Part shown: positions 1 through 18,611 of the stretch, piece after piece
Layout of the letters: every line of letters starts with the position of its first letter
Position numbering within the stretch: position 1 is the first letter of the stretch
Origin: Candidatus Methylomirabilota bacterium
GTDB taxonomy: Bacteria > Methylomirabilota > Methylomirabilia > Methylomirabilales > Methylomirabilaceae
DNA: 58,067 nucleotides
Assembly: GCA_016207095.1 (NCBI GenBank)
Contig: JACQQF010000074.1
Coordinates: 1 to 58,067, forward strand
Direction: 5' to 3'
Position numbers and translations under genes: made by a program
The notes under the pieces: generated by a model
What the model saw: only the letters and a program-made list of their open reading frames with translations
What the model was told of the DNA's origin: nothing
Database searches by the model: none

Positions 1-124
1 GGAACGGCACCAGGGAAAGCGATAGTTCTTAGCACGACACCTGTCGACAGTTAGTGCCGTTCCAACCGTTTGGGCAAAAGAATATTTGTTGGCGATTAGG
101 CGAGAAGAGTTGGAACGGCACTAG
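1..124. repeat. Dispersed repeat, left copy (inverted partner at 24262-24392)
   Basis: This stretch holds three copies of a 13-nt core, GTGCCGTTCCAAC or its complement (1-10 truncated by the window edge, 54-66, 109-121). Read on the other strand, the whole 124 nt matches 24262-24392 at roughly 90% by eye, including an internal CTGTCGACAG palindrome. No gene is seen from 1 to 277. A TTGACA hexamer lies at 149-154 but has no good -10 partner. Confidence 0.85.
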
Positions 125-277
125 CTTGCCTCGACTTTCAAAAATCGCTTGACAAGTGAACCGCTTCCGAATGACCCTTCAGCGAACTCAACCTCTTGCT
201 GAGAGTCGATGGTTGAGCGCCGACGGCTGAACGCCTCGCGCTGACAGGGACGTCACCGCGGCGACGAGGGGATAGAT

Positions 278-1441
278 GTGGACATTCTGATCGCGGGCGT
301 CAGTGTGCGCGGCTTCGTCGAGTCAGCCGTTCGCAGTGGGCTGGGGCATCGGATTGTTGCGGTCGATCACTTTGGAGATTTCGACCTGCGACTTCTCTGT
401 GAACATCGCTCGATCAAGAGAGACCTCGGCCTCTCATATGACGTCCGGCACCTGATGACGGCCTGTCACGATCTGACGTTCGATACCGTCGCCTATACCG
501 CGAACCTCGAAAATCATCCGTCGGCGGTGGAGGCGTTGCGCCGTGGGAAGCCGGTCTTGGGAAATAGCGCCTCGGTGCTGTCATCGGTGAGGAATCCGGC
601 GCGCCTCTTCAATTTCCTTGCGCGATCAGCCATTCCGGCGCCGGAGATCGCCTTCTCCTCGAAGGTGCTTGAGCTCGAGCCCGACACCACATGGCTCCGC
701 AAGCCTCTGAGGAGCGGGGGCGGCCACGGGATCGCTGTTCATGCTCCGGGTGATCGCCTCGAGCGAGATGCCTATCTTCAGGAGCACCTGAACGGGACGC
801 CATGTGGCGCGGTGTTCGTTGCGGATGGTCGGGATGCTCGTCTGTTAGGCGTCTCAGAACAGTTGATCGGCCGGAAGGAGTTTGGGGTAGACGGCTTTCG
901 CTATTGCGGCAGCATCCTGGGGCGGGTGGGGGCGGGACAGATGGCATGGGGCGACCTCATTGGTCGCGTGGAGCAGATCGTTGGCGCGATTGTGCGAGAG
1001 TTCCACCTCGTTGGCGTGAACGGGATGGATTTCATCCTGACAAGCGGCACCGCCTATCCGCTTGAGATCAATCCGCGCTACACAGCCTCGATGGAGCTTG
1101 TCGAGCAGGCCTATGGCATCAATATCTTCGACGCGCATCTGGCAGCCTGCCAGGGGAGGCTCCCCGCGTTCGACCTCAGGGGGCAGTCCAGCGCAGGCTT
1201 CTTCGGCAAAGCGATCCTGTTCGCCACCGACCGTGTGGTGTTCCATCATCCTCAGTGGTGGTTCGATCGCGGCGCAAGAGACCTGCCGTGTGACGGAGAG
1301 CGGATCGGAGTCGGCAGGCCGATCTGCACCGTCTTCTCTCGGGGATCCAGTCGCGGGGAGTGTTACGACGGAGTGATCGAGGCCGCCGCTGCCATGTATC
1401 GAGCTGCGCGGGAGAAGGATCCACCCAGGGAGGACGGGTGA
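278..1441 (+). CDS. ATP-grasp ligase, predicted carboligase family (COG2232-like)
   Basis: A 387-residue protein with an ATP-grasp layout: an N-terminal Rossmann-like part (DILIAGVSVRGFVESA), a lysine and glycine-rich nucleotide loop near residues 141-150 (RKPLRSGGGHG), and the metal-binding end NGMDFIL...YPLEINPRYTASME near residues 250-275. GTG is the likely start, with GAGGGG seven bases upstream. ATP-grasp ligases join a carboxylate to an amine or thiol using ATP. Proteins of this type occur in methylotroph H4MPT gene islands and in archaea, where a related ligase (MfnD) joins tyramine to glutamate in methanofuran synthesis. The stop overlaps the start of the decarboxylase gene by one base, so the two are co-translated. 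The substrate is not shown by the sequence; a role in a C1 cofactor or a small peptide-like metabolite is inference. Confidence 0.75.
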   Translation: MDILIAGVSVRGFVESAVRSGLGHRIVAVDHFGDFDLRLLCEHRSIKRDLGLSYDVRHLMTACHDLTFDTVAYTANLENHPSAVEALRRGKPVLGNSASVLSSVRNPARLFNFLARSAIPAPEIAFSSKVLELEPDTTWLRKPLRSGGGHGIAVHAPGDRLERDAYLQEHLNGTPCGAVFVADGRDARLLGVSEQLIGRKEFGVDGFRYCGSILGRVGAGQMAWGDLIGRVEQIVGAIVREFHLVGVNGMDFILTSGTAYPLEINPRYTASMELVEQAYGINIFDAHLAACQGRLPAFDLRGQSSAGFFGKAILFATDRVVFHHPQWWFDRGARDLPCDGERIGVGRPICTVFSRGSSRGECYDGVIEAAAAMYRAAREKDPPREDG

Positions 1442-2751
1442 TGATGCGGGATGGACATCGCTTGGCGTCTTCGGCCACGCGCCGGCTCCTGAGCCGGAAT
1501 GGCTCGCTCCGGACCGAGGGCGGGCAACTGTGGATCGAGGGACTTTCCTCCCGGGAGCTCGTGGAGCGGTTGGGCACGCCGATCCTGGTCTACTCCTCAG
1601 CCCGTCTGCGCGATAATATCGAACAGGCCATCGAGGCGACCAGGGCCTGCGCCTTTCCGATTCGCATCCACTACGCCCTGAAGGCCTGCTATCTGGTCGG
1701 GGTTGTCGGGCTCGTGAGAGAGGCCGGATTGAATGTGGAGGTCATGTCCGAATTCGAGTATCTCCTGGCCCGGAGGATCGGATTTGCTCCGGATCAGGTC
1801 ATCGTGAACGGCCCGGCAAAGCGGCCGGAGTTTCTGGAGCGCGTGGTGACCGATGGCGTGGCCCTCATGAATGTCGAGTCGCTGCCAGAGATCGCCTTCC
1901 TGGATGCCCTTGGCCGGAGGCTGGGGAAGGCGATCCAGGTGGGCCTCAGGATCAACCCACTCCCGTCACGGCACCTTCGAGGCCCGTTTGCTCCGCCGGG
2001 GTCGAAGTTCGGTTTTGACGTGCCCACCGGAGAGGCGGCCGAGGCGGTCAGGCGGATCGTTCGCTCTCGCGCCCTATCGCTCCGTGCCGTGCACTGCCAC
2101 AGCTACACCAGGCAGTACTCCCCTGAGGCTCATCGAGCCCATGTTGCATCGGTGGTGAAATTCGTCCGACAGGTCGAGCGGAAGCTGGGCATCCGAATCC
2201 CGGTCCTCGATTTCGGAGGAGGGTTCGGCAGCCGCTCCATCATGGAAGCCAATGGTGGCCCACTGCGGAGCTTCATTGCCAAAATGACCGAGCCGCTCGC
2301 CGGCCTCTCAGGGGACCGAGAGATCGTCATTGAACCTGGGCGATACCTCGTCAACGACGCCGCTGTCTGCCTGACTACCGTTCTGTCCTGCAAGCGGAAC
2401 GGCCGCAGACGCTGGGTGTTGGTCGATGGGGGCCGGAACATCCTTCCCCCACGCAAGAATGCCGAGTATGCGGTCGTTCCCTGCGAGGTTCGACCGGGAC
2501 GGATGCTGTACCATGTCGGCGATTTCCTCTGCATGCCGTCGGAGCCCATTCCACTCTCGTTCGTGAGCGGACCGATAGAGCTCGGCGATTGCCTCGCTGT
2601 GTTCAATGCCGGGGCGTATACCTTTTCGATGGCTCAAAGCTTCGGGGAGCCGATCCCCAACGCGATCCTTGTTGAGAAGGCCGAGTGGACCTGGCTGTAC
2701 CGCAAGAGGTCGATCGATGAGCAATGCAGGGATTTGAGCGGTCACACGTAG
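1441..2751 (+). CDS. Fold-type III PLP-dependent decarboxylase (Orn/Lys/DAP family)
   Basis: A 436-residue protein. The start chosen is the ATGATG overlapping the ATP-grasp stop codon, with GGGAGG upstream; an upstream extension to 1360 lies inside the previous gene. Family marks include the PLP lysine in IHYALKACYL (about residue 76), the glycine-rich phosphate loop DFGGGFGS (about residues 256-263), EPGRYLV, and the C-terminal active-site segment GDFLCMPSE with its conserved Cys. These enzymes (LysA, SpeA/SpeC-like, siderophore-pathway decarboxylases) remove the alpha-carboxyl of basic or diamino acids. The N-terminal extension of about 30 residues is basic. Its tight coupling to an ATP-grasp ligase suggests that a decarboxylated amino acid is then ligated. 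The exact substrate is unknown. Confidence 0.8.
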   Translation: MMRDGHRLASSATRRLLSRNGSLRTEGGQLWIEGLSSRELVERLGTPILVYSSARLRDNIEQAIEATRACAFPIRIHYALKACYLVGVVGLVREAGLNVEVMSEFEYLLARRIGFAPDQVIVNGPAKRPEFLERVVTDGVALMNVESLPEIAFLDALGRRLGKAIQVGLRINPLPSRHLRGPFAPPGSKFGFDVPTGEAAEAVRRIVRSRALSLRAVHCHSYTRQYSPEAHRAHVASVVKFVRQVERKLGIRIPVLDFGGGFGSRSIMEANGGPLRSFIAKMTEPLAGLSGDREIVIEPGRYLVNDAAVCLTTVLSCKRNGRRRWVLVDGGRNILPPRKNAEYAVVPCEVRPGRMLYHVGDFLCMPSEPIPLSFVSGPIELGDCLAVFNAGAYTFSMAQSFGEPIPNAILVEKAEWTWLYRKRSIDEQCRDLSGHT

Positions 2752-2849
2752 CGCGGCCGTGTTGCCCGACGGCTTCTCTCATGGTGAGAAAGCCTGCGCG
2801 GCGTCAGGGCCATCGCCGGCGCCCGTGTCATCGCGGCCGGTGAGGAATC

Positions 2850-3194
2850 ATGGCGAACATCGTATTGTACAATCGCGCGGGGTGACCTGCCTGCGATAGC
2901 GCGAGGGAGTTTCTCTCGCGGTACGGGATTACCTACACCGATCATAACGTCGAGCGCCATCCGATCGGCGGCACCGAGGCGATCGAGCTCGCCCGGCGTT
3001 TCCGGACACTGTATGTCAAGATAGGCGGTGCAATCGTGAAGTGGGATCGGGATCCAGCAGAGATTCCGGAGACCGACCTGAGGCGTGCTTTTGTCCATGA
3101 AGATGGCCAACTGAAGATCCCTGTCCTCCTGATAGATGATATCGTTGTTCGAGGATTTGACGAGCCGACCTACGCCATGCTCTTGACAGAATAA
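2850..3194 (+). CDS. Glutaredoxin-like protein with in-frame TGA, candidate selenoprotein (UPAC)
   Basis: Read through TGA at 2883-2885, the frame from ATG 2850 (GAGGA 4-5 bases upstream) to TAA 3192 encodes 114 residues. It starts MANIVLYNRAG, then the TGA, then PACDSAREFLSRYGITY, and ends with a typical glutaredoxin/thioredoxin-fold tail (IPVLLIDDIVVRGFDEP). The TGA takes the place of the first cysteine of a CPxC redox motif, and the second cysteine (residue 15) is kept. No other stop interrupts the frame. Directly after the TGA is a stem-loop resembling a bacterial SECIS. Selenocysteine at this position is known in other glutaredoxin-like selenoproteins. The alternatives are a recent nonsense mutation or a sequencing error. 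The middle segment (about residues 45-85) is longer than in classic glutaredoxins. The gene follows the decarboxylase by about 100 bases and could belong to the same unit. Confidence 0.65.
2894..2925 (+). promoter_or_regulatory. Candidate bacterial SECIS stem-loop
   Basis: Pairs run 2894-2895 with 2924-2925, 2897-2898 with 2922-2923, and 2900-2905 (CGCGAG) with 2915-2920 (CTCGCG). A bulge at 2896 and a G/G mismatch interrupt the stem. The 9-nt apical loop starts with GG (2906-2907), about 20 nt after the TGA. Known bacterial SECIS elements have a short upper stem and a G at the start of the loop, within about 16-37 nt of the TGA. Pairing was judged by eye. Confidence 0.55.
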
Positions 3195-3365
3195 CTCGCC
3201 ATTGGGCAGGGACCAGGCGCAGAAACATTGGGCGATCTCGCCGCCTGTCTGTGTCATTTGCCCCAGTACCGCCGGATCAAGGGGCAGCCCGCTGGCTGAC
3301 ACGGGCCGCGGAACGTTTTGTGTGAGTGGTTTCGCGGGTTCGTCACCGAGGTTCTGTGCGCTGAT

Positions 3366-3382
3366 CTGGCACGGGGAATGCT
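3366..3382 (+). promoter_or_regulatory. Sigma-54 promoter upstream of first TonB receptor
   Basis: CTGGCACGGGGAATGCT matches the sigma-54 consensus YTGGCACGRNNNTTGCW at all but one defined position. The invariant GG (3368-3369) and GC (3380-3381) are exactly ten bases apart. The expected transcription start is near 3392, about 57 nt before the ATG at 3449. The neighbouring NtrC-family regulator has the sigma-54 contact motif GAFTGA, which supports the call. No cobalamin-riboswitch B12 box was seen between 3195 and 3448. Confidence 0.75.
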
Positions 3383-3448
3383 TTCGCGAGGAGAGCCTGG
3401 AAGGTGATCCGCCGTCAGTGGACCGAAGGACCAAGGCTTGGAGGAGAT

Positions 3449-5626
3449 ATGAGACTGATTGGCAGACAACCCTCGGGAAGGTATCTCGCTATCTGTGTCG
3501 TCGCTGGCGTTGTGACGATCTGGCCCGTCACATGGCTGTCAACCTCATCGTGGGGGGCCCCTCCCCCGTCGCCAACAGAGAAATCGGCAGAGGCGGTGCG
3601 TTTGGAGCCGGTCGTGGTCTCGGCCAGCCGGATCGAGCAGAAGTTGCGAGACGTCCCGGCGAACGTCACGGTCATCACGAGGGAGGAGATCCAGCAGTCG
3701 CCGGCGCGGACCGTGGACGACCTGTTGCGACAGATTCCTGGATTCAGCTTGTTCCGTCGGAGCAGCAGCCTCGTGACTCACCCTACGGCACAGGGGGTCT
3801 CGCTTCGCGGGATCGGGCCGAGCGGCGTCAGTCGGACCCTGGTCTTGCTGGACGGCGTGCCACTGAACGATCCGTTCGGGGGCTGGGTCTATTGGAGTAA
3901 GGTGCCGCTTGAGAGTATCGAGCGGATCGAAGTGGTTCGTGGCGGCGGCTCGGGCGTCTATGGAAACTACGCGCTGGCCGGGGTGATCAACATCATTACG
4001 AGACGGCCGGAGGCCAGGGTGGCGCAGGCGAAGCTCGATCTCGGGACGCGCAACACGGTGGACGCCGATCTGATGGCCAGCCACGTCAGGGGCCCCTGGG
4101 GGGCCTCTGTCGAGGGGAGCTTCTTCCGCACCGACGGCTACAAGATCGTCCGTGAAGACCAGCGGGGAAAAATTGACATCGACGCCGACTCCAGTCACGA
4201 GACCTTTAACGGCCGGGTGGAATACACACCTTCACTGGCTTCATCCCTCTTTCTCGCCGGCAGCTTCTTCCACGAAGATCGCGGCAACGGCACCCCGCTC
4301 CAGAAGAACTCGACGGAGGCCGGGTATATCGCGACCGGGGGCCGGCTTGGGACTGCGGACGGGAGCACCTGGCAGTTCACACTGTTCTCCCATCTGCAGA
4401 CCTTTAACAGCACCTTCTCGGCCGCCGCGCCTGATCGGAACTCCGAGACCCCGGCGCTCGATCAGTTCGACGTGCCCTCAACTGCCGTAGGAGCCAATCT
4501 TCAGTGGTCGAGACAGGTCCATCCGGCCCATCTGCTGACGGCTGGAACCGATCTCCGATGGATCGATGGAGACACCAACGAAGACTTCCGGTTCGCCTCG
4601 GGACAGCTCACTCGACGGCGCAAGGCCGGGGGTGAGCAACAGTTGGTCGGGGTGTATGCCCAGGACATCTTCACCCTCATTCCGCGATTGCAGGTGACCA
4701 TCGCAGGAAGGCTCGATTATTGGCGGAGCTTCGATGCCTCCCGCGTCGAGCAGGACAAACCTGGTGTGCCCCCGACCGGGATTCCCGCCAGGGACACACC
4801 TTTCCCTGATCGGGATGAAGCCGCGTTCAGCCCCAAGGTGGCCCTTCTCTATCATGCCACCGATGAGCTCTCCCTGAGAGGCTCCTTCTACCAGGGCTTT
4901 CGGGCCCCAACCATCAACGAACTCTTCCGGCCGTTCAGGGTCCGGAACGACATCACCGAGGCCAACGAGAATCTTAAACCGGAGCGCCTGATTGGCGGAG
5001 AGGTCGGGATGGATTACACCATCGCCAAGAACCTCCTTGGGCGGCTGACCGCGTTCTGGAACGAGGTGGAGGATCCTATTGCCAACGTCACGAAGGGGGT
5101 GGGGCCGGGGACCATCGATCCCTGCGGCTTTGTTCCGGCCGGAGGCGTCTGTCGGCAGCGACAGAATTTAGGGCGGACGCAGATCAGAGGGGTGGAAGCT
5201 GAACTGGAGTACCACCCGTTCGTTCCCTGGACCTTGTCGGGAACGTATCTCTTTAACGATACAGAAGTCTTGAGCGCTCCAAATCAACCGGTGCTGGAAG
5301 GCAAGAGGATCGCCCAGGTTCCCGAGCACCAGTTCACCCTGAAACTGACCTATACTAACCCGGCTTTGGTGAACGTGTCCGTTCAGGGGCGGTATGTGGG
5401 AGATCAGTTCGAGGACGACCTCAACTCGCTGAAGCTCGGGGACTTCTTCGTAGTGGACCTGATGCTTTGGCGCCCGATCGCCATCCCCAAGGTGTCTGCA
5501 GGTGAAGTGTTCCTCGGTGTGGAGAATCTCTTCGACAGGACGTACGAGGCCGGCAAGACAACCGATGGCATCGTCACCATTGGCGCCCCTGTCCTGGTCC
5601 ATGGCGGCATCAGGGTCCGCTTCTGA
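3449..5626 (+). CDS. TonB-dependent outer-membrane receptor
   Basis: A 725-residue receptor. ATG 3449 is chosen because GGAGGA precedes it at the right distance and a signal peptide follows (basic start, hydrophobic stretch to about residue 35, ending SWGAPPP). A TonB-box-like segment (LEPVVVSAS) leads into a plug domain (NVTVITREEIQQSPARTVD, VSLRGIGPSGVSRTLVLLDGVPLNDPFGG, VVRGGGSGVYGNYALAGVINIITRR). The C-terminal barrel ends with aromatic-rich strands (GVENLFDRTYEAG, final F). It moves a chelated metal, cofactor or similar ligand into the periplasm with energy from TonB. The ligand cannot be read from sequence. A strong sigma-54 promoter candidate precedes it and a two-component system follows. 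Being about 15 kb from XoxF, it could handle a lanthanide or copper chelate, but that is inference. Confidence 0.9.
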   Translation: MRLIGRQPSGRYLAICVVAGVVTIWPVTWLSTSSWGAPPPSPTEKSAEAVRLEPVVVSASRIEQKLRDVPANVTVITREEIQQSPARTVDDLLRQIPGFSLFRRSSSLVTHPTAQGVSLRGIGPSGVSRTLVLLDGVPLNDPFGGWVYWSKVPLESIERIEVVRGGGSGVYGNYALAGVINIITRRPEARVAQAKLDLGTRNTVDADLMASHVRGPWGASVEGSFFRTDGYKIVREDQRGKIDIDADSSHETFNGRVEYTPSLASSLFLAGSFFHEDRGNGTPLQKNSTEAGYIATGGRLGTADGSTWQFTLFSHLQTFNSTFSAAAPDRNSETPALDQFDVPSTAVGANLQWSRQVHPAHLLTAGTDLRWIDGDTNEDFRFASGQLTRRRKAGGEQQLVGVYAQDIFTLIPRLQVTIAGRLDYWRSFDASRVEQDKPGVPPTGIPARDTPFPDRDEAAFSPKVALLYHATDELSLRGSFYQGFRAPTINELFRPFRVRNDITEANENLKPERLIGGEVGMDYTIAKNLLGRLTAFWNEVEDPIANVTKGVGPGTIDPCGFVPAGGVCRQRQNLGRTQIRGVEAELEYHPFVPWTLSGTYLFNDTEVLSAPNQPVLEGKRIAQVPEHQFTLKLTYTNPALVNVSVQGRYVGDQFEDDLNSLKLGDFFVVDLMLWRPIAIPKVSAGEVFLGVENLFDRTYEAGKTTDGIVTIGAPVLVHGGIRVRF

Positions 5627-5627
5627 A

Positions 5628-5722
5628 GGAAGCATTCAGCATTCAGCCAAAACATTTTTGCTGAGTGCTGACTGCTGATCGCTGATTGCTACTACGCTGA
5701 TAGCTGATGGCTGTTTCAACAC
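5628..5722. repeat. CTGA/AGCTGAT-type short repeat cluster
   Basis: The gap between the receptor and the kinase gene is made almost wholly of short degenerate units such as TCAGC, GCTGAT and GCTGATAGCTGATGGCTG on both strands. Similar clusters lie at 30046-30117, 31955-32097 and inside the cheR reading frame at 57903-57937. Confidence 0.7.
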
Positions 5723-5723
5723 C

Positions 5724-7202
5724 ATGTTGATCCGAACGAAGCTCCATATCGGGTATCTGGTCATCTTCATCCTTGCGGTCTGCATCGGCATTGCCATGAT
5801 CTGGGCGGTGCGAACCTGGCAAGCGGCAACGGATGACTTTACGTACTCCCACGCTCAAAGCCTGAGGGCCGAGAGGCTGAGGGGAGATATGTATCGGCAC
5901 ATCAAAGAGATCCTTGATCGCCTTGTGAGTGGGGACAGGCTCGCCCAACAGGAGTTCGAGAGCCTGGGAATACGATTGGAGGAGGAGTTCGCAGATCTCA
6001 GGACTCACGCCAAAACCAAGGAAGAGACGGAGCTGATCAACAGCCTGGAGATGGCGCATCGACGGGTCTCCCTTCTCGTGAGAGAGACCTTCGCGCTCCT
6101 GGCAAAGGGGGCTCGTGACCTTGCCGTCCAGAAGGTTGAGGCGGAGCTGGAACAGATTGCGTTCAAGGAACAGGACGAGCAGATCAATCGGCTCCGCGCC
6201 TACTATGACGCGGCGTCGGCGCGATCGAGGCGTCAGACGCTTGCAATCGGCGCGAGGGGAGAGCTCTTGGCCGGGATCATCATGCTCCTTGGCCTCATAT
6301 GGGGAGGTGGGTTGCTCTTCGGAATTCAACGCTGGCTCGTCAAGCCGCTTCAGACCATCGGTCGCTCCACCACCATCATCAGCACGGGGGACCTGAACCA
6401 TCACATAGAGGTCAGGTCGGAGGATGAATTGGGCGACCTCGCTGTCTCCATCAACAGCATGGCCGAGGCCCTCAAGCGGATCCAGGAGCGAGTGCTTCAA
6501 GCCGAACGGTTGGCGGCGGTAGGGGAGCTCTCCTCGTATGTCGCGCACAATATCCGCAACCCATTGGCCAGCATCCGGTCCTCTGCCCAGGCGGCGTTGG
6601 AAGACGCGCACGTGTCAGAGGAGAGTCGAGCGACTCTGAAGGGGATCGTTGACACAGTCGATCATTTGAAGCAGTGGGTCCATAACTTTCTGTTCGCCTT
6701 TAAACCGATCACACCGACCTTGGCTCCCGGTGATCTGAACCGGGTGATCACGGAGGCGCTAGACGTCGTTCGTCCCATGATCGAGGCAAAACGGATTGAC
6801 GTCGAGATGAACCTTGACACGACACTCCCGTTGGCGCCGCTCGATGAGGGGTATCTGGAACAGGCGCTGGTGTCTCTCCTGACGAACGCGTGTGACGCAA
6901 CCCCTCCAGGGAAAACGATCTCGATCAGGTCGAGGCTGATCCAGGAGGGTGAGAGGCCATGGGCCATCTCCGTCGATCTCGATGACGATGGCGGCGGAAT
7001 CCCGCCCGATCTGCTCCAAAAGGTTTTCACCCCCTATTTTACGACGAAGAGTGACGGGGTAGGCCTTGGTCTCACGATGGCGCAAAAGATCGTCAGTTCT
7101 CACAGCGGGAGCCTTATCGTCTCGAACCGACCAGAGGGCGGGACCACAGTTCAAGTCCTTCTTCCGCTGTCTCATCCCACGGGAGTAGTTCGCGATGGCT
7201 AA
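5724..7202 (+). CDS. Membrane sensor histidine kinase (NtrB/AtoS-like)
   Basis: A 492-residue kinase. Transmembrane segments are at about residues 9-29 and 182-200, and they enclose a helical extracytoplasmic sensor of about 150 residues rich in E, L and R. A HAMP linker follows (about 205-258). The dimerisation and phosphoacceptor helix has His275 in the segment VAHNIRNPLASIR. An HATPase domain has the N box (LTNACDAT), G1 (DDDGGGIP) and G2 (GVGLGLTMAQKIV). Its stop overlaps the start of the response-regulator gene by eight bases, so the pair is one operon. This type of kinase usually phosphorylates an NtrC-family regulator. The sensor part resembles four-helix-bundle domains that respond to small molecules, but no ligand is evident. 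Confidence 0.88.
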   Translation: MLIRTKLHIGYLVIFILAVCIGIAMIWAVRTWQAATDDFTYSHAQSLRAERLRGDMYRHIKEILDRLVSGDRLAQQEFESLGIRLEEEFADLRTHAKTKEETELINSLEMAHRRVSLLVRETFALLAKGARDLAVQKVEAELEQIAFKEQDEQINRLRAYYDAASARSRRQTLAIGARGELLAGIIMLLGLIWGGGLLFGIQRWLVKPLQTIGRSTTIISTGDLNHHIEVRSEDELGDLAVSINSMAEALKRIQERVLQAERLAAVGELSSYVAHNIRNPLASIRSSAQAALEDAHVSEESRATLKGIVDTVDHLKQWVHNFLFAFKPITPTLAPGDLNRVITEALDVVRPMIEAKRIDVEMNLDTTLPLAPLDEGYLEQALVSLLTNACDATPPGKTISIRSRLIQEGERPWAISVDLDDDGGGIPPDLLQKVFTPYFTTKSDGVGLGLTMAQKIVSSHSGSLIVSNRPEGGTTVQVLLPLSHPTGVVRDG

Positions 7203-8598
7203 GATACTGATCATCGATGATGAGGCGGTATTTGCGCGTTCGGCAGCCCATTTCCTGAGCCGGAACGGCCACGAATGCTGGAGTCTGTCGAGCGCGGAGG
7301 AGGGACTCGCAATCATCGAGAAGGAGCGGCCGGACCTCGTCCTGCTGGATATCAAGCTGGCCGGAATGAGCGGGCTCGAGGCGCTCAAGCGGATTGCCAG
7401 CCTCGACCCGAACGCCATCGTCATTATCATGACCGCCTATAGCAGTGTGGAAAGCGCGGTCGCGGCCATGAAGGATGGGGCATACGACTACATCCAGAAG
7501 CCGATCGATCACGACGAGCTGAAATTTACCATCGAGAAGGCGCTGGAGACCCGTCGTCTGCGGGAACGCCTCTCATATTTTCAGCGGAAGGAAGTCCAGC
7601 AGTCCGCCCACCGCGATATCATCGGCGCATCTCCTCAGATGAAGCAGGTTACTGAGCTGATCGAGCGGATTGCCCACCTCGAGCCCGGACCGGCTGGTGA
7701 CCTTCCGACGGTGTTGCTCTTAGGAGAGACCGGAACGGGCAAGGATCTTGTAGCCAGGGCGATCCATCACAGGGGCAGCCTCGCCGGGCAGCCGTTCGTC
7801 GAGGTCGAGTGCACGTCGATCCCGAAAGAGCTGGCGGAGGCGGAGCTGTTCGGGTACGAGAGAGGGGCATTCACGGGAGCGTCGGCGGCGAAGCCTGGCC
7901 TGATCGAGGCCGCCGATGGCGGGACCCTCTTCTTGGACGAGGTCGGCGAGCTTGGCCTGGACCTTCAGGCGAAATTCCTGAAGGCGATCGAGCGGAAGCA
8001 GATCCGGCGGCTGGGCAGCCTCCGGGAGCGAAGGATTCATGCCCGCATTATCGCGGCAACGAATCGCGACCTCGAGGCGGCCGTCAGAGCCGGCCTGCTC
8101 CGTCAGGACCTCTACTATCGCCTGAAGGTCCTCACCATCGAGCTGCCGCCTCTGAGGGAGCGTGGCGAGGACGTGGTGCTTCTGGCGAACCATGTTTTGA
8201 AGAAACTGACCCATAAATATTCGTTCCCAGAGAGGCGTTTCACGGAGACAGGTCTCGACGCCCTCAGAAAGTACCGCTGGCCTGGAAATGTTCGAGAACT
8301 CGCGCATGTGGTGGAGCGGGCCCTGTTGGTCTCCGATGAGATAGAGATCGGCCCGTCAGCCCTCGGTCTCGAGACCTCTTCGGTGCCGATTCGGGTCGGC
8401 GACGATGGGCGCTTGGACGTGGAATTTCCCGAGCGGGGCGTCGATCTGGAAGAGATCGAGCGACAGTTGATCGAGCGGGCACTGGCACTGACAGAATGGA
8501 ACGTCACCGAGGCTGCCAGAAAGTTGGGGATCGGCAGGGAGGCGCTTCGCTATCGCATCCAGAAGTATTGCCTCGTCCGCCCGCCTGCGGTGAGCTGA
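7195..8598 (+). CDS. NtrC-family sigma-54-dependent response regulator
   Basis: A 467-residue regulator. The receiver domain (1-120) has the acidic pair (IIDDE) and phospho-acceptor Asp52 (VLLDIKLAG). A sigma-54 AAA+ domain (about 140-380) has Walker A GETGTGKD, the sigma-54 loop GAFTGA, Walker B GTLFLDEVGEL and the R-finger segment. A C-terminal Fis-type helix-turn-helix follows (NVTEAARKLGIGREALRYRI). It should activate sigma-54 promoters on phosphorylation by the kinase encoded just upstream. Two sigma-54 promoter candidates lie in front of the TonB receptor genes on each side, making them its likely targets. The last codons and the stop fall inside a 24-bp tandem repeat, so the natural C-terminus may have been altered by repeat growth. 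Confidence 0.93.
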   Translation: MAKILIIDDEAVFARSAAHFLSRNGHECWSLSSAEEGLAIIEKERPDLVLLDIKLAGMSGLEALKRIASLDPNAIVIIMTAYSSVESAVAAMKDGAYDYIQKPIDHDELKFTIEKALETRRLRERLSYFQRKEVQQSAHRDIIGASPQMKQVTELIERIAHLEPGPAGDLPTVLLLGETGTGKDLVARAIHHRGSLAGQPFVEVECTSIPKELAEAELFGYERGAFTGASAAKPGLIEAADGGTLFLDEVGELGLDLQAKFLKAIERKQIRRLGSLRERRIHARIIAATNRDLEAAVRAGLLRQDLYYRLKVLTIELPPLRERGEDVVLLANHVLKKLTHKYSFPERRFTETGLDALRKYRWPGNVRELAHVVERALLVSDEIEIGPSALGLETSSVPIRVGDDGRLDVEFPERGVDLEEIERQLIERALALTEWNVTEAARKLGIGREALRYRIQKYCLVRPPAVS

Positions 8599-8729
8599 GT
8601 CGAACCACCTGTCCTGAGCCAAGTCGAAGGGCCGGTGGTGAGCTAAGTCGAACCACCTGTGGTGAGCTAAGTCGAACCACCTGTGGTGAGCTGAGTCGAA
8701 CCACCTGTGGTGAGCTGAGTCGAACCACG
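8590..8729 (+). repeat. 24-bp tandem repeat, about five to six units
   Basis: Units close to GTGAGCTAAGTCGAACCACC plus TGTG repeat head to tail with one or two base changes (G or A at one position). The second unit is a variant (CCTGAGCCAAGTCGAAGGG) that matches a repeat core seen again near 34730 in reverse (CGACCGGGCTCAGGACAGG). The first unit includes the stop codon of the response regulator. There is no unique spacer between units, so it is not a CRISPR. Confidence 0.9.
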
Positions 8730-8876
8730 CCTGCCGCGCTTGGATGGTTGAGATCAACCAGCGGTTGATTTCAACGACGATTGTCCCACACATGGAGCCT
8801 TCGTAGAGCCTTCGTATTCCCGACAATTCCTCAAGTAATTCAAGGTGTTTCAAGTCCCATCTCATCTGAAAAACTC

Positions 8877-8893
8877 TTGGCATCGTAGTTGCC
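8877..8893 (+). promoter_or_regulatory. Sigma-54 promoter candidate upstream of second TonB receptor
   Basis: TTGGCATCGTAGTTGCC has GG (8879-8880) and GC (8891-8892) ten bases apart and the TGGCA and TTGC blocks. Three consensus positions differ. The expected start is near 8904, about 50 nt before the ATG at 8956. The rest of 8730-8955 holds no gene that I can recognise. Confidence 0.6.
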
Positions 8894-8955
8894 ATGTGAA
8901 GGGAAGCCTTTCAAAGGGGCAGCTTGTTCACGCTCCCTCCTCAGGAGGTTTTCCT

Positions 8956-11190
8956 ATGCCATGGGATCGGAATTGGTGGTCGGGTGTCTTCGCGAGTCTG
9001 CTCCTTCTCACTTCTGTTGAGGCCTTCGCTCAGCAGCCTGGAGCGCAGCCCGAGATCGTCCGCCTTCCGGAGGTTCTCGTGACAGCCCCTGCCAGACTTC
9101 CGGAGATTCCTCTTTCACCCGCCGAAGTCCCGGCCAACGTCCAGGTGATCACCGGTGAGGAGATCAGGCGGTCCGGGGCACTGACCCTCCAGGACTTCAT
9201 GCAGCAGCTTCCCGGTGTGCATCTGAATGACGAGCAGGGGAACTCCTACCAGCCCGACATTTCGTTTCGTGGCTTCAGCGCGACGTCGGTGACCGGGGTC
9301 CCCCAGGGGATCAGCGTCTTTGTCGATGGCGTTCGGGTGAACGAGCCGGCCGTCGAGGAGATCAACTTCGATCTTCTCCCCCTCGACGATGTCGAGCGGG
9401 TCGAGCTGATCCGGGGGCCGATAGCCGTATTTGGCAGGAACACCCTGGCCGGCTCGCTCAACATCATCACCAGGCGTGGCGGCGCGGAGCGAGAGATCGT
9501 CCCAGAGGTCTCTGGCGGCAGCTTCGGGCGCCAGAAATACCGGGTCCATCTCAGCGGGACCGAAGGGCCGATCGATTACTACTTTGCCGGTAGCCAGTTT
9601 ATGGAAGATGGCTTCCGCAATGAAACCGACAGTCGCCTCTCGCACGTCTTCGGCAAGCTTGGGTACCGCGAGGGTGGCACCGACATCACCCTTTCCTACC
9701 AGTACCGGAACAACAATATCAGGCAGGCCGGTTCGCTGCCCCTCAGCATCCTGCAGGTCGATCGGGAACAAAACTTTACTGCCGGTGATTTCTTCAAGCC
9801 AAATCTTCATCAGGCGACCCTCAACGCCCACCAGGCACTTGGAAGCGGCGTCTCTCTCGCCCTGAATGGCTTCGTCAGAAGTCTCGATGCCGAGCAGTTC
9901 AACGTCAGCCTGATCGGGCAAAACAGCCGGCTCTTTAACGACACCCTCTCGGGAGGAGGGACGCTCCAGCTTACGCACGAAGGCCGATTTTTGGGACGAA
10001 AGAACCTGCTGACGATGGGAGCCGAGTACGCCCGGCACGAGGTGGATATCCGGGTCTTCGAGGAGCAGAATGAGCGGAGCCTTCGGGCATGCATCGAGGA
10101 GGCGATAGCGAGGGGGGAAGACCCGGCCGAGGAGTGCTCGAGACTATCAGAGCTCGAGTCGGTGCTCTCTGACACCCAGGATACGGTCGGCTTCTTCATC
10201 CAGAATACAGCGGAGCTGGGCCGTGGTCTGTTGCTGTCCGGCGACAGCCTCACCCTAACCGGGGCGCTCCGGTATGATTATGTCCGGCACGACATCACCG
10301 ACAGGAGCCCCGAAGAGCCGGGGAAGGCGACGGGGCGCGCCACATTCGATCGATTCACGCCGAGGGCCGGTTTCAACTACAACCTTTCGGACAACTACGG
10401 GATCTACCTGTCATACTCGGAGGGGTTTCGCGCCCCGGCCTTCTTGGAGTTGACCTGTGCCGACCCCGCAGCCCCGTGCGTCGGCATCCAGGCCGGCGTG
10501 GCCCCGGATACCAGCTTCTTCAATCTCCGGCCGGTGAACGCAACAAACTACGAGCTGGGCTTCAGGGCCCGTCCGGCCCCCTGGCTCGAGGGGAGCCTCG
10601 CCATCTACCGGACCGACGTGCGGGATGACATCTTCTCAGTGTCGCCCGCGGGGACGATCACCATCTTCTTCCAGAACATCGGCGACACCAGGCGAGAGGG
10701 GATCGAGCTGGCGCTTCGCGGGGTCTATGAGCGTCTGGAGGGATATGTGAATTACGCGTATACCCGCGCGACCTTCGAAAGTGATATCGAGCTGGCCTCG
10801 CCGAGGACACCAGGCGTCACTGAACAGGTGCGAAAAGGGGATGAGATCCCGCTCACGCCCAACCATCGGCTCAACGCCGGCCTCCGCTACCGGCTCCATG
10901 AGTGGGTTACACTCTCCCTGAATCTGACCTATGTCGGCGACCAGTTCTTCCGGGGCGACGACGCGAACACCCAGCCGAAGCTTGACGACTACATCGTTGT
11001 GAACGCCGGCATCGATGTCCGCTGGCAGCGCTTCGCTGGGTTCATGAAGATCAACAATCTGCTCAACAACGACTATGAAACGTTTGGGACCTTTGCACCC
11101 AACGCCAAGGTCCCGGGGAACCCCATCGAACCATTCCTGACGCCCGCCCCGCCGATTAATCTGATTGTCGGGGTCAGTTACCGGTATTGA
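8956..11190 (+). CDS. TonB-dependent outer-membrane receptor
   Basis: A 744-residue receptor. ATG 8956 follows AGGAGG at good spacing; an upstream extension to 8845 lacks a ribosome site. A signal peptide (to about residue 28, AFAQQ) is followed by a TonB-box-like segment (PEVLVTAPAR) and the plug (NVQVITGEEIRRSGALTLQDF, DISFRGFSATS, GISVFVDGVRVNEP, VELIRGPIAVFGRNTLAGSLNIITRR). The barrel ends GVSYRY with a C-terminal aromatic residue. The extracellular loop near residues 370-400 carries two cysteines (ACIEEA...EECSRL), and another pair is near residue 505 (TCADPAAPCVG), possibly disulfides. The ligand is unknown. It differs clearly from the first receptor, so the two probably recognise different chelates. 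A TonB gene follows about 100 bases downstream. Confidence 0.9.
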   Translation: MPWDRNWWSGVFASLLLLTSVEAFAQQPGAQPEIVRLPEVLVTAPARLPEIPLSPAEVPANVQVITGEEIRRSGALTLQDFMQQLPGVHLNDEQGNSYQPDISFRGFSATSVTGVPQGISVFVDGVRVNEPAVEEINFDLLPLDDVERVELIRGPIAVFGRNTLAGSLNIITRRGGAEREIVPEVSGGSFGRQKYRVHLSGTEGPIDYYFAGSQFMEDGFRNETDSRLSHVFGKLGYREGGTDITLSYQYRNNNIRQAGSLPLSILQVDREQNFTAGDFFKPNLHQATLNAHQALGSGVSLALNGFVRSLDAEQFNVSLIGQNSRLFNDTLSGGGTLQLTHEGRFLGRKNLLTMGAEYARHEVDIRVFEEQNERSLRACIEEAIARGEDPAEECSRLSELESVLSDTQDTVGFFIQNTAELGRGLLLSGDSLTLTGALRYDYVRHDITDRSPEEPGKATGRATFDRFTPRAGFNYNLSDNYGIYLSYSEGFRAPAFLELTCADPAAPCVGIQAGVAPDTSFFNLRPVNATNYELGFRARPAPWLEGSLAIYRTDVRDDIFSVSPAGTITIFFQNIGDTRREGIELALRGVYERLEGYVNYAYTRATFESDIELASPRTPGVTEQVRKGDEIPLTPNHRLNAGLRYRLHEWVTLSLNLTYVGDQFFRGDDANTQPKLDDYIVVNAGIDVRWQRFAGFMKINNLLNNDYETFGTFAPNAKVPGNPIEPFLTPAPPINLIVGVSYRY

Positions 11191-11236
11191 TATCCTTGCA
11201 TCGAAAGAAAAAATTCTCGCCCACCTCGGGAACACT

Positions 11237-11245
11237 TGGTATAAT
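11237..11245 (+). promoter_or_regulatory. Extended -10 promoter for tonB
   Basis: TGGTATAAT is a perfect TGN plus TATAAT box about 50 bases before the tonB frame. The -35 region is weak, as is common for extended -10 promoters. A small hairpin (ACAGC/GCTGT around AGGA/TCCT) lies in the leader at 11254-11283. Confidence 0.5.
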
Positions 11246-11295
11246 GAAAGGTCTGCGACAGCAGGAGGTTCCTGCCGCTGTGCAGTGGCATCTCC

Positions 11296-12384
11296 TTGGG
11301 GGTACGGGTGGTCGTTCACCGTAAGAGACAAAATACTGAGGTCGGTCCGGCCCTCGGGTTGGTCCGTCCTCGCACCACTTGCCTAAGCCGTTCATCTGAA
11401 AGCCCGCTGGAGCTTGGTCGCTTCTTCCTCAGTTCGGCCGGTCTCCACCTGGTCCTGGCCTGGGCCGTGATGACTGTTGGGCTTCACCGACCCCCGCTTC
11501 CCGAGAGGCCACTTGTCGTGAGGCTCGTCCAGGCCGAGGCCCCACGCTCATTTCCCCCAACCCCACAGCCGGTGCGGCCGCGCCCCGGACAACAGGTAGC
11601 GGCTGGTCAGCCGTCTGAACCCAGGAGGGAGTGGGAGATCGCCCCTCGCGACGTGATCCCTCCATCGATCGCCCGTCCGGCGGCGATAGCCCCTAGGGCG
11701 CTGGAGATCGCGAAAACCGCCGACCCGGATGAGCGCCGCCAGATCGGCTCTCCACGTGCTGCGGCAGAGCTCGTCAAAGAGCTTGGTCTGCCCGGCGGCA
11801 TCGCTCCCTCCTCCGGTGTGCGGATCGTGGATGGTGCTTGGATCGATGGACCAAAGGCCGTAGGCACGCGGGGCAGGGTCGCGATGGTTCCTGGGACGAG
11901 GACGGGAGCCGGCTCGGGTGCCGGCCCCGCTCTGATTGGAGATGGGGCGGAAGGGGCGCGCCAGGGCAGCAGTGGTGCGGATGGCCGGGGACGTGCTCGG
12001 CGGCTGGGCGCGGAGATCAGCATTCCCGTTGCTCCGACGGTGATCGTGGGTCCTCGGCAGCGGGGCATCGGACGGGGCGGCAGCGGGGCAGAAGCCCGTG
12101 CGACAGGGGGCGGATTCGCTCGACCGGATTATGGAGCGAATTCGCCGCCGAAGTATCCCCCTCTTGCGAGAGAGAAGGGTTACGAGGGGACGGTCTACCT
12201 TCGGGCCATGATCGAGCGAGATGGTCGCGTGGGCAATCTCGCCATCGATCGCTCCTCGGGTTACGAGATCCTGGATCGGGCCGCGGTCGATTCAGTTCGG
12301 GAGTGGACATTCCTGCCTGCACAGAAGGATAAGAAGCCGGTGTCAAGTTGGGTGCTCCTCCCCGTACGGTTCGTGCTGAAGTGA
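11296..12384 (+). CDS. tonB: TonB energy-transducing protein
   Basis: About 362 residues if the TTG at 11296 is used; a GTG at 11308 is an alternative, and the true start is uncertain. A single membrane helix (about residues 42-62, FLSSAGLHLVLAWAVMTVGL) is followed by a proline-rich spacer (PPTPQPVRPRPG), a long Gly/Arg/Ala-rich stretch, and a TonB C-terminal domain (YPPLAREKGYEGTVYLRAMI...SSGYEILDRAAVDSVREWTFLPA). It would span the periplasm and transfer proton-motive energy to the two TonB receptors upstream. ExbB and ExbD are not in the window, so it must share them with another locus. The Gly-rich spacer (about residues 185-285) is unusual for its low complexity. Confidence 0.87.
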   Translation: MGVRVVVHRKRQNTEVGPALGLVRPRTTCLSRSSESPLELGRFFLSSAGLHLVLAWAVMTVGLHRPPLPERPLVVRLVQAEAPRSFPPTPQPVRPRPGQQVAAGQPSEPRREWEIAPRDVIPPSIARPAAIAPRALEIAKTADPDERRQIGSPRAAAELVKELGLPGGIAPSSGVRIVDGAWIDGPKAVGTRGRVAMVPGTRTGAGSGAGPALIGDGAEGARQGSSGADGRGRARRLGAEISIPVAPTVIVGPRQRGIGRGGSGAEARATGGGFARPDYGANSPPKYPPLAREKGYEGTVYLRAMIERDGRVGNLAIDRSSGYEILDRAAVDSVREWTFLPAQKDKKPVSSWVLLPVRFVLK

Positions 12385-12480
12385 GTTGGCGGGGGGCGTC
12401 CGACCACGCCTTCGTCACCGAAACCCATCGCGCATGGTGAGGGGGGATTCTACGAAGAGAAGAAGAGAGGGGACTGTGGC

Positions 12481-13704
12481 ATGTCGCAATTGAGATCGAG
12501 AGCATGGGAGATCGGCCTGTCGTTGGCCATTCTCGGCGTTCTGGTGGCGACGCCGCCGACAACGGCAGCCGACCCAGCGAGCAAGTATTTTTACGATGAT
12601 AAGGGGCAGATCGTCCGCGAGGAGGTGGATAGCACAGGGTCCGGGCGGACTGATACGTGGATCACCTATAAAGATGGTAAACCGGTTCTCCAGGCGGTGG
12701 ATACGGGTAAGCATGGCAAACCTGATACCTGGTACCATCTGACTCCCGATGGACAGGTTGCACGGGCGGAAAAAGACCAGAACTTGGATGGGAAGCCGGA
12801 TGTCTGGACCATCTATGAGAAGGAGGTTCCGGTCAAGGCTGAGCAGGACCTAGACTTCGATGGAAAGCCGGACCGATACATCTACTTTGAGAAGGGGAAG
12901 CCTGTCCGAGCCGAGGAGTCGGTGAAGCGGGATGGAAAGATCACCCTTTGGCTCTACTACGATGAGGCTGGAGTGCTCATCCGGGATGAGGAGGACACGA
13001 AAGGAATCGGGCGGGCGACGGTCTTTTCTTACTACCAAGACGGCAAGCTGATCCGGCGAGAGGAGGATACGAAGGGCACAGGGCGTGTCGATCGCTGGTC
13101 GTACTACGACAAGGAGGAGCGACTGATCCGCCGGGAGGTTTCCCGGAGCGGATCGGGGCGGCCTGATGTGTGGGCCCATTTCGAGAACGGCAAGATCGTC
13201 AAGCAAGAAGAGGATCTCCTTGGGCGCGGACGGCCCAACGTCACCTATTTCTTTCAGGCGGGTGCGCTCGGGCGGCGCGAAGAGGACACTCAGGGGGTCG
13301 GCAGAGTGGACCTCATCGAGTGGTACGAAGACGGCAAGCCGGTGAAGCGACAGCAGGACAGCCGTCAGCAGGGAAAGATCGATGTCGTCAGCTACCTCCG
13401 GCAGGGCCAGATCGAGCGCCAGGAGGTTGATACGAAGTACGAGGGGCGATACGACCTCGTGAGATTCTATACGAACGACCGCCTTGTGAAAGAAGAGTAC
13501 GATACCAACGGCGACGGGCGGCCGGACATCTGGGCGTACTACGACGAGAAGGGCGACAAGGTCCTTCAAGAAGAGGACACCGAGTACGACGGCAAGGTGC
13601 ATGTCAGGTTTCGCTTTGAGGGGGGGCGCGTCGTGAGCAAGGAGGTGGTGAGCGCCAGAAAGTCCGACGGACCGCCTCGTCTCCTGACGCCGAAGAGCTG
13701 GTAA
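12481..13704 (+). CDS. Secreted protein of about 14 acidic 24-residue repeats (DxNxDGxxD-like)
   Basis: A 407-residue protein with a signal peptide (about 1-29, ending PPTTAADP), followed by about 14 tandem units of 24-25 residues. Each unit has the pattern W-x-Y-Y-x-D-G-K-L-[IV]-R-x-E-E-D-T-x-G-x-G-R-x-D. Several units carry a compact acidic loop such as DTNGDGRPD, DQNLDGKPD or DLDFDGKPD, which resembles the calcium loops of EF-hand-like and thrombospondin type-3 repeats; other units are degenerate (DTKGTGRVD). No enzyme motif is visible. It probably forms an extended beta-rich periplasmic or surface protein, perhaps metal-binding. It sits just downstream of tonB on the same strand, about 100 bases away. 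I do not recognise a named family. A role in binding calcium or lanthanide ions is inference from the loops and from nearby XoxF. Confidence 0.75.
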   Translation: MSQLRSRAWEIGLSLAILGVLVATPPTTAADPASKYFYDDKGQIVREEVDSTGSGRTDTWITYKDGKPVLQAVDTGKHGKPDTWYHLTPDGQVARAEKDQNLDGKPDVWTIYEKEVPVKAEQDLDFDGKPDRYIYFEKGKPVRAEESVKRDGKITLWLYYDEAGVLIRDEEDTKGIGRATVFSYYQDGKLIRREEDTKGTGRVDRWSYYDKEERLIRREVSRSGSGRPDVWAHFENGKIVKQEEDLLGRGRPNVTYFFQAGALGRREEDTQGVGRVDLIEWYEDGKPVKRQQDSRQQGKIDVVSYLRQGQIERQEVDTKYEGRYDLVRFYTNDRLVKEEYDTNGDGRPDIWAYYDEKGDKVLQEEDTEYDGKVHVRFRFEGGRVVSKEVVSARKSDGPPRLLTPKSW

Positions 13705-13834
13705 CGGTTCGCCGCACCGTCAGGCCATCCCGACAAAACAGGCATTTTCACCCCTTCATCCTTCATCTCCCTCCCGTTTTTGCGCCCAACCTCTCCCCTA
13801 GAATGATGTCATCAGAACTATGAGAAAAAATCAC

Positions 13835-13863
13835 TTGACAGGCTTCCATGACTGGGATATACC
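13835..13863 (+). promoter_or_regulatory. Sigma-70 promoter, TTGACA-N17-TATACC
   Basis: A perfect -35 (13835-13840) and a 4-of-6 -10 (13858-13863) lie 17 bases apart, about 120 bases upstream of the 13986 start. The rest of 13705-13985 holds no gene. Confidence 0.6.
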
Positions 13864-13985
13864 CTCAACATCAAACGCCGTTCTGTTAACATCGTTGTAA
13901 GGCTTTGTAAGGTGTTGGTGTCTCTTCAGATCCCCGGCGCCCCGCGACGTCCACCCAGGAGTTCCGTCCGGGAGAGAGAGTTCAG

Positions 13986-16181: not shown

Positions 16182-16203
16182 ACCTCCTCTCATCCCTTCT
16201 TAC

Positions 16204-16260
16204 TCCCCTCACCCCAGACCCTCTCCCACGGTGGGGGAGAGGGGGAGGGAGAGGGGGAGA
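16204..16260. repeat. CCCTCTCCC/GGGAGAGGG palindromic repeat
   Basis: CCCTCACCCC then CCCTCTCCCACGGTGGGGGAGAG can fold into a GC-rich hairpin just after the stop of the preceding gene. Relatives lie at 18228-18280, 29062-29115 and 32971-33066. It may end transcription, but it lacks a T-run. Confidence 0.75.
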
Positions 16261-16394
16261 GGCGATTTCTGATAACTCAACGCGACGAGGGAGAAAGGGG
16301 GGATGGAGAAAGCGAAACCACAGCAGCGAAGAGGGCAACGCTGAAGCACTGAAGATCGCGGCCCATTAACATTCTTACTAGGGGGGGCGATTCA

Positions 16395-18179: not shown

Positions 18180-18227
18180 CCCGAACTTCCATGGGCCATT
18201 GGCCCGCCTGAAACACCGTTTGAAAAC

Positions 18228-18280
18228 CCCCCGCACCCCGAACCCTCTCCCCACCTGAGGAGAGGGCAAGGGGTGGGAGG
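18228..18280. repeat. CCCTCTCCCC/GGGGAGAGGG-type palindromic repeat
   Basis: ACCCTCTCCCC, then an ACCTGA loop, then GGAGAGGGCAAGGGG, forms a hairpin 50-100 bases after the porin-like gene. It belongs to the same family as the copy at 16204. Confidence 0.7.
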
Positions 18281-18394
18281 GATTCTCGCATCACAGGCAT
18301 ATCGTGTGAATGGCGGCGAACGAAACAGCGTTTTAGCTCTTGACAAGATCAGGCCAGCTATGAGAACGTAAGGCTCCCCACGGACCCAACACGG

Positions 18395-18484
18395 GTGGTT
18401 CATGAGGATACAGTCGCAAGCACCCCGCAGCAATTCCCACTTAATGAACCACGCGGCCTGGTTGCCTATATAGCACCCTATAAT
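18395..18484 (+). promoter_or_regulatory. xoxF upstream region: inverted repeat and TATAAT box
   Basis: GTGGTTCAT (18395-18403) and its exact complement ATGAACCAC (18444-18452) form a 9-bp inverted repeat with a 40-base spacer. A perfect TATAAT lies at 18479-18484 with no good -35, which suggests an activator-dependent promoter. An AAGGAGG-like string at 18490 has no coding frame that I can support. The rest of 18281-18611 shows no gene. The leader to the xoxF ATG would be about 120 nt. Confidence 0.45.
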
Positions 18485-18611
18485 TCTCGGAAGGAGGTGA
18501 GGCGGAGTAGGCGGGAAACATGCAGGGGGATGTCAAGGCATGTTGTAAGGGCTTTTCACTGGTAAGCAGTAAGCAGACTGATAACCAGGAGTACCTAGAG
18601 GGAGGGGTTGA

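Follow-up and report, generated by a model that had tools for sequence, protein, structure and literature searches.

The window analysed here, a stretch of 58,067 nucleotides from a Candidatus Methylomirabilota bacterium (contig JACQQF010000074.1), carries on its forward strand a small gene that looks at first sight to be broken by a stop codon. The gene (2850-3194) opens with the ATG at 2850-2852 and closes with the TAA at 3192-3194; sequence and translation show a single interruption, a TGA at codon 12 (2883-2885). The predicted product, of 114 residues, begins MANIVLYNRAG-U-PAC. The TGA therefore stands where a U-P-x-C motif begins (G-U-P-A-C in full), and the original prediction, which had proposed just such a frame, was right in both coordinates and motif. 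Four further parts lie on the same strand. A GAGGA at 2842-2846 is possibly a Shine-Dalgarno element, as judged from the sequence, with a short spacing of 3 nt to the ATG. The TGC at 2892-2894 specifies Cys15, the proposed resolving cysteine of UxxC, and is followed at 2900-2920 by a hairpin of the bacterial SECIS type (stem 2900-2908 with 2912-2920, loop GUU at 2909-2911). Finally, the codon at 3120-3122 encodes Pro91, presumed by analogy with the fold family to adopt the cis conformation and to face the selenocysteine (Sec). Upstream, at 278-2751, an ATP-grasp frame overlaps a frame for a PLP decarboxylase of the diaminopimelate/ornithine type.

Comparison between genomes establishes the conservation of the UGA. 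Homologues of nearly full length, with E values no higher than 8.3e-16, are present in 35 of the 95 genomes of the phylum that were searched. Exactly one TGA interrupts 33 of these homologues, at the identical codon in every one of the sequences inspected; the other two are free of TGA and have Cys at the site. Three more genomes contribute fragments, at contig ends, in which the motif reads UPTC. The codon for Pro91 is invariant in all 35 homologues, and Cys15 is retained in all 33 with a TGA, while both Cys-type homologues have Ser there.

The machinery required to read such a codon is found in the same genome (here G000; 2.9 Mb, 94.9% complete, the gene being on its contig C49), again by comparison with known families. 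SelA (503 bits) is encoded without internal stop, SelB scores 367.1 bits, SelD (397.7 bits) has one TGA of its own, and a tRNA-Sec with anticodon UCA reaches 71.4 bits. SelA was searched, within the genus, in G000 alone, and in 14 control genomes. SelB and SelD are above cut-off in all 15 genomes of the genus and tRNA-Sec in 13, the exceptions being G003 and G008. G003 is the closest relative that bears the gene, and its best tRNA-Sec match has 40.5 of the 47 bits needed, in an assembly that is 80% complete. Among the 14 controls, SelA, SelB and SelD each exceed their cut-offs in two genomes, and tRNA-Sec in five.

A stem-loop about 20 nt after the TGA had been predicted, and it is indeed there. 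Its stem has 9 bp, its loop lies 23 nt after the UGA and its energy is -12.8, which places it within the limits published for bacterial SECIS elements (PMC13188914): a loop of 3-9 nt, a stem of 4-16 bp, a G as first or second nucleotide of the loop, a distance of 16-37 nt to the UGA, and a minimum free energy of at most -7.5. The GG that had been claimed for the start of the loop is absent: the loop begins with G-U, and 8 of the 32 other members have GG there. Taken at a fixed place, 32 of the 33 hairpins fall within the published limits; the exception (L044) fails that for energy. When 54-nt segments are folded, the hairpin comes out as the structure of lowest energy in 26 of the 33, including the gene under study, another fold being preferred in seven, and the mean probability of the core pairs in the 54-nt folds is 0.80. 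Folding energy is moderately unusual against plain shuffles (z = -3.81 over 31 nt, with none of 200 shuffles as stable; z = -2.05 over 54 nt, with 7 of 200). Against shuffles that keep the encoded residues by using synonymous codons it is unremarkable (z = -1.25 here, a mean of -1.04 over the 33 members and of -0.30 over 152 other sequence windows), and is weak evidence for the hairpin. A scan of positions 1-20000 with Rfam returned no relevant RNA family. It did give, at 16185-16263, weak matches to several microRNA models, far under their gathering scores, at what is probably a plain long hairpin.

The strong argument for the hairpin comes from codon choice, not from energy. The codons that make it, encoding an AREFLS stretch, follow the pattern GYG-AGR-GAG-NNY-CTC-TCG in all 33 members with a TGA: Glu is always GAG, Leu CTC and Ser TCG, and Arg is always AGA or AGG, codons chosen for only 22 of the 375 Arg residues in the rest of these genes. 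Both Cys homologues have CGG or CGC, and CTG, at the corresponding places, and no AGR. Overall, when two members share a residue, its codon differs in 12.2% of pairs within the hairpin, against 43.5% at the other codons compared, in counts that ignore the kinship of the sequences. Comparison of this kind shows the hairpin to be under selection.

Covariation adds to this picture at the level of several families. Within the family itself it is not convincing: the stem is nearly invariant, with one pair showing double changes, and the score of 0.083 against 0.069 for shuffles (3 of 500 as high) is exceeded when the partners are slid by -2 or +2 positions (0.100 and 0.089). Now, the genus encodes other selenoproteins, of the ArsC_rel_Se_1 and UXX-star-like types, whose hairpins have the same spacing from UGA to loop and the same type of loop, with different stems. 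Taking these together with the family (39 sequences), covariation rises to 0.319 against 0.138 for shuffles, none of 500 reaching the observed score, and slid partners give at most 0.177. Both partners are altered at three pairs of the stem, in 6, 8 and 14 of the 39 sequences; the stem changes mostly follow the three families and so represent few events. By two further measures the set is unremarkable: 63 of 500 shuffles have as many doubly changed pairs, and 260 of 500 as many pair types. In addition, the outermost pair of the stem fails in 27 of the 39 sequences. A covariance model built from this set scores 61.5 bits at the hairpin, which belongs to its training set, with a runner-up of 15 bits within the window. 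Run on the whole genome, it finds four places, three of which are training members, this hairpin included. The fourth is new (G000:C100:88573-88626; about position 1501 of L103, minus strand) and falls in a UXX-star-like frame of 77 residues with VYSATGUGSC, hence GUxxC. Two other UXX-star-like selenoprotein genes, L014 (G000:C48) and L018 (G000:C9), are present in the same genome, the protein of L014 being under every NCBIfam cut-off displayed. Since spacing and type of loop are shared with these two families of the lineage while stems differ, a single covariance model can find further selenoproteins.

That a TGA and a hairpin should occur together had been thought unlikely by chance. As a matter of folding energy the hairpin is only moderately unusual; what takes it beyond chance is comparative: a TGA at one codon in 33 genomes, fixed codons in the stem and covariation across families. 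With the machinery, the homologues, the published SECIS limits, codon choice and covariation all in its favour, the selenocysteine reading of the original prediction is well supported. The gene that seems broken by a stop almost certainly reads its TGA as selenocysteine to make a small redox protein, and we put at about 95% the probability that this is a genuine bacterial selenoprotein gene, with the UGA at 2883-2885 decoded as Sec. SelB and the Sec-tRNA with anticodon UCA would decode this codon under the direction of the hairpin loop 23 nt downstream, and translation would run on to the TAA at 3192.

How widespread is the family? Within the genus (15 genomes) the gene is present in G000 and G003 only. 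Beyond the phylum, its distribution is judged from a single scan of 84,980 species with a sequence pattern, which returned 90 stretches. Relatives number 21, every one on a record titled Rokubacteria or Rokuibacteriota; 20 of these have TGA and one has TGT, and all belong to the 35 homologues. Having missed 14 of those 35, the scan is of a sensitivity that divergent members elsewhere can escape. Viral contigs gave four pattern matches and no relative, and plasmids a single weak glutaredoxin match, none spanning 80%.

The two Cys homologues are instructive. They read CDCPSS and CDCPAS, with Cys in the place of Sec, Ser in that of the resolving Cys, and an additional, new Cys two residues upstream of the Sec position. 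On a tree which is midpoint-rooted for drawing, and of which the bootstrap had not settled, they make one clade (100/100) amid Sec sequences (forks at 98/94 and 96/93); from this nested position the Cys form looks derived from the Sec form. The same tree does not recover the family as a single clade, the UXX-star sequences falling, on a long branch, amid those of the family in an unresolved fork. A more daring view, unlikely in our opinion, would have an unnamed family of this phylum, ancestrally with Sec, its Cys forms made by Sec-to-Cys replacement, in which the SECIS codons and the resolving Cys disappeared and the upstream Cys was acquired, and its protein, in the boldest version, acting as an Spx-like Sec switch rather than as a reductase.

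What kind of redox protein is made? It had been called glutaredoxin-like, and this holds for its core: the glutaredoxin model PF00462 matches with 34.4 bits over a cut-off of 22.9, across residues 4-43 only. Over its whole length it resembles YffB, Spx and proteins related to ArsC. When the 35 sequences are made into a profile, nearly all of it aligns with YffB (1rw1, at E 1.4e-9) and with Spx (1z3e, at E 5.2e-9); the match to the best glutaredoxin (7c10, at E 5.9e-10) is split into two stretches, of which the better has 41 residues. The predicted structure, of mean pLDDT 95.2, has two strands (53-58 and 61-65) following helix 2. In Foldseek searches with it, Spx-type proteins come first (3l78, E 1.0e-5; 3gfk, E 3.0e-5; TM 0.55-0.57, rmsd 5.7-7.8), followed by ArsC-related proteins, YffB (TM 0.60, E 1.0e-3) and glutaredoxins. 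Normalised by the length of the query, TM is 0.55-0.60 for Spx, YffB and most ArsC-related proteins, against 0.44-0.54 for most glutaredoxins; normalised by the target, it goes up to 0.77 for glutaredoxins and NrdH-like proteins, a figure which reflects how short these chains are. Comparison thus assigns the fold class, and the protein, as sequence profiles and the predicted model describe it, is a redoxin of the ArsC/Spx branch with a glutaredoxin-like core. As for its chemistry, we propose that Sec12, in the UPxC at the start of helix 1, would most likely provide the selenolate that attacks a disulfide or another oxidised substrate, that Cys15 would resolve the intermediate via a Sec-S bond, that Pro91 would position the substrate, and that recycling would call on a thioredoxin-type reductant rather than on glutathione.

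Among competing views, the one that fares best would see here the Sec version of an ordinary glutaredoxin that depends on glutathione, comparable to the Sec glutaredoxin known from Clostridium. The PF00462 score, the CPxC-like motif and the Foldseek matches to the short glutaredoxin and NrdH-like chains would fit it. We nevertheless hold it decidedly unlikely: PF00462 stops at residue 43, the sequence matches over the whole length are to YffB and Spx, and glutathione synthetase (TIGR01380, the only step of the pathway covered) is above cut-off in none of the 15 genomes of the genus, with weak matches in 14, and in 3 of the 14 controls. This speaks against a glutathione enzyme and is not decisive.

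Less probable still is a Sec-containing arsenate reductase related to ArsC. The fold is ArsC-like, the ArsC model PF03960 matches 19 of the 35 members at E 0.01, and the nearest NCBIfam model is ArsC_rel_Se_1; the protein of 2850-3194, for its part, has no PF03960 match at that threshold. Arsenate reductases are known to have an arginine before their cis-proline, a place where all 35 members have Ile or Val before Pro91. Lower again we would rank a selenium version of Spx, namely a transcriptional redox switch that would bind RNA polymerase and sense oxidants through a Sec-Cys bond. The whole-length match to 1z3e and the top Foldseek places of 3l78 and 3gfk would agree with this idea, as would the UxxC, which presumably stands at the place of the CxxC of Spx. 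Yet YffB, which to our knowledge is not a known regulator, fits about as well, and the structural matches to Spx have rmsd values of 5.7-7.8. As for a pseudogene or a sequencing error, that is, a Cys redoxin gene with a nonsense change, a single point change would give one TGA in an otherwise open frame, but the idea is scarcely credible, refuted as it is by 33 assemblies with TGA at the same codon, and opposed by the conserved hairpin codons and by a dN/dS of about 0.31 after the UGA (dN 0.13 and dS 0.42 when 100 codons are compared with those of the G003 homologue), which implies that this part of the frame is under selection as protein.

A selenium redoxin of the ArsC/Spx branch is not without known relatives. 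No NCBIfam model covers the protein of 2850-3194. The nearest is NF041106 (ArsC_rel_Se_1), an 'ArsC family (seleno)protein' which a 2026 review lists as 'Arsenate reductase-like protein' with UxxC (PMC13188914). The two align over their whole length (residues 6-108 to 4-107 of 107) and share UxxC, the spacing from UGA to loop and a GUU loop at that place. Yet our protein scores 47.7 bits, under the cut-off of 85, where a real member from the genus has 138.2, the best of the other 34 members reaches E 7.5e-16 (about 59 bits by conversion), and a branch of length 2.7, supported at 100/100 on the midpoint-rooted tree drawn as above, separates both. With YffB (1rw1) and Spx (1z3e, 3gfk) the protein has in common the whole-length profile match, the fold and a redox motif that starts helix 1; it differs by Sec for Cys, by a TM of only 0.55-0.60 and by the strands 53-58 and 61-65 after helix 2. 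Sec glutaredoxin (PF00462) is named in the same review, which has C. oremlandii in its reference list (PMC13188914); the UPxC-type motif and the N-terminal half are shared, whereas the C-terminal half and the length are ArsC/Spx-like, in a genus without glutathione synthetase above cut-off. Finally, the UXX-star proteins (NF041114, NF041211, NF041212) are also small Sec redoxins, and include paralogues in the same genome with the same class of SECIS, from which the tree does not cleanly separate the family. Their models, by contrast, have 70-71 positions and lack the inserted segment, and our protein scores 36.2 of 66 bits with NF041212, 17.3 of 100 with NF041211 and 20 of 72 with NF041114.

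Selenoproteins of the ArsC/Spx type have already been described, as 'Arsenate reductase 2' (cd03032, UxxC; PMC2398784). Compared by name and motif, the rows of the review's table of selenoproteins (PMC13188914) include none specific to this protein. Titles and the openings of abstracts on selenoproteins of Methylomirabilota or Rokubacteria, on NF041106 and on Spx-type selenoproteins gave no description of it, and passages of the deep-Sep paper (PMC12013277) mention neither glutaredoxins nor Methylomirabilota. The sequences thus point to a new subfamily within the known thioredoxin-fold selenoproteins with UxxC. It adds to the selenoproteins of a phylum in which one metagenome-assembled genome has 63 predicted selenoprotein genes, according to the review, which cites a 2026 Cell Reports paper (PMC13188914); these 63 may include the family described here. 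Gene callers for which TGA is a stop would presumably truncate or overlook such a gene. The family also provides a clean test set for bacterial SECIS elements, with a near-invariant hairpin in synonymous codons which is lost in the two genomes with a Cys codon.

The neighbourhood of the gene differs between subgroups, and the context names no substrate. A PLP decarboxylase gene lies upstream in both G000 and G003. At 5 of the 21 named Rokubacteria loci, a frame of 114 residues, of one type, begins within about 30 nt of the end of the gene; the one scanned is a Cupin_7 protein. Clustering of neighbours at 30 of the 32 loci shows, among the 13 clusters listed, recurrence at no more than 8 loci and no family-wide partner, the recurring ones being ThiC, HAD, D-Ala-D-Ala carboxypeptidase, ABC transport and luciferase-like proteins. 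Elsewhere in the window, a 24-bp unit is repeated six times in tandem (8584-8728) by the end of a response-regulator-like frame, and 32237-32950 gives a weak match to glutathione synthetase (73.9 bits, with a cut-off at 299). PF02461 (pmoA/amoA, of the AMO/pMMO family) matches in 10 of the 15 genomes of the genus, which is probably Candidatus Methylomirabilis, and none was found in G000 or G003, the two that carry the gene; both are drafts, and the sequence may simply be absent from them.

A last observation concerns tRNA-Sec. Two genomes of the genus hold, besides an ordinary tRNA-Sec, a second gene of this kind (L007:2142-2239 on the plus strand in G014, L008:1083-1180 on the minus strand in G013), with a UCA anticodon loop, 57.9 bits over a gathering score of 47, and no call by ARAGORN. 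It is located about 320 nt from an ArsC_rel_Se_1 gene, on the opposite strand. Additional tRNA-Sec matches, of 54 and 48 bits, are found in G006, and the sole match above cut-off in G011 (56.4 bits) has the same length of 98 nt as this second gene.
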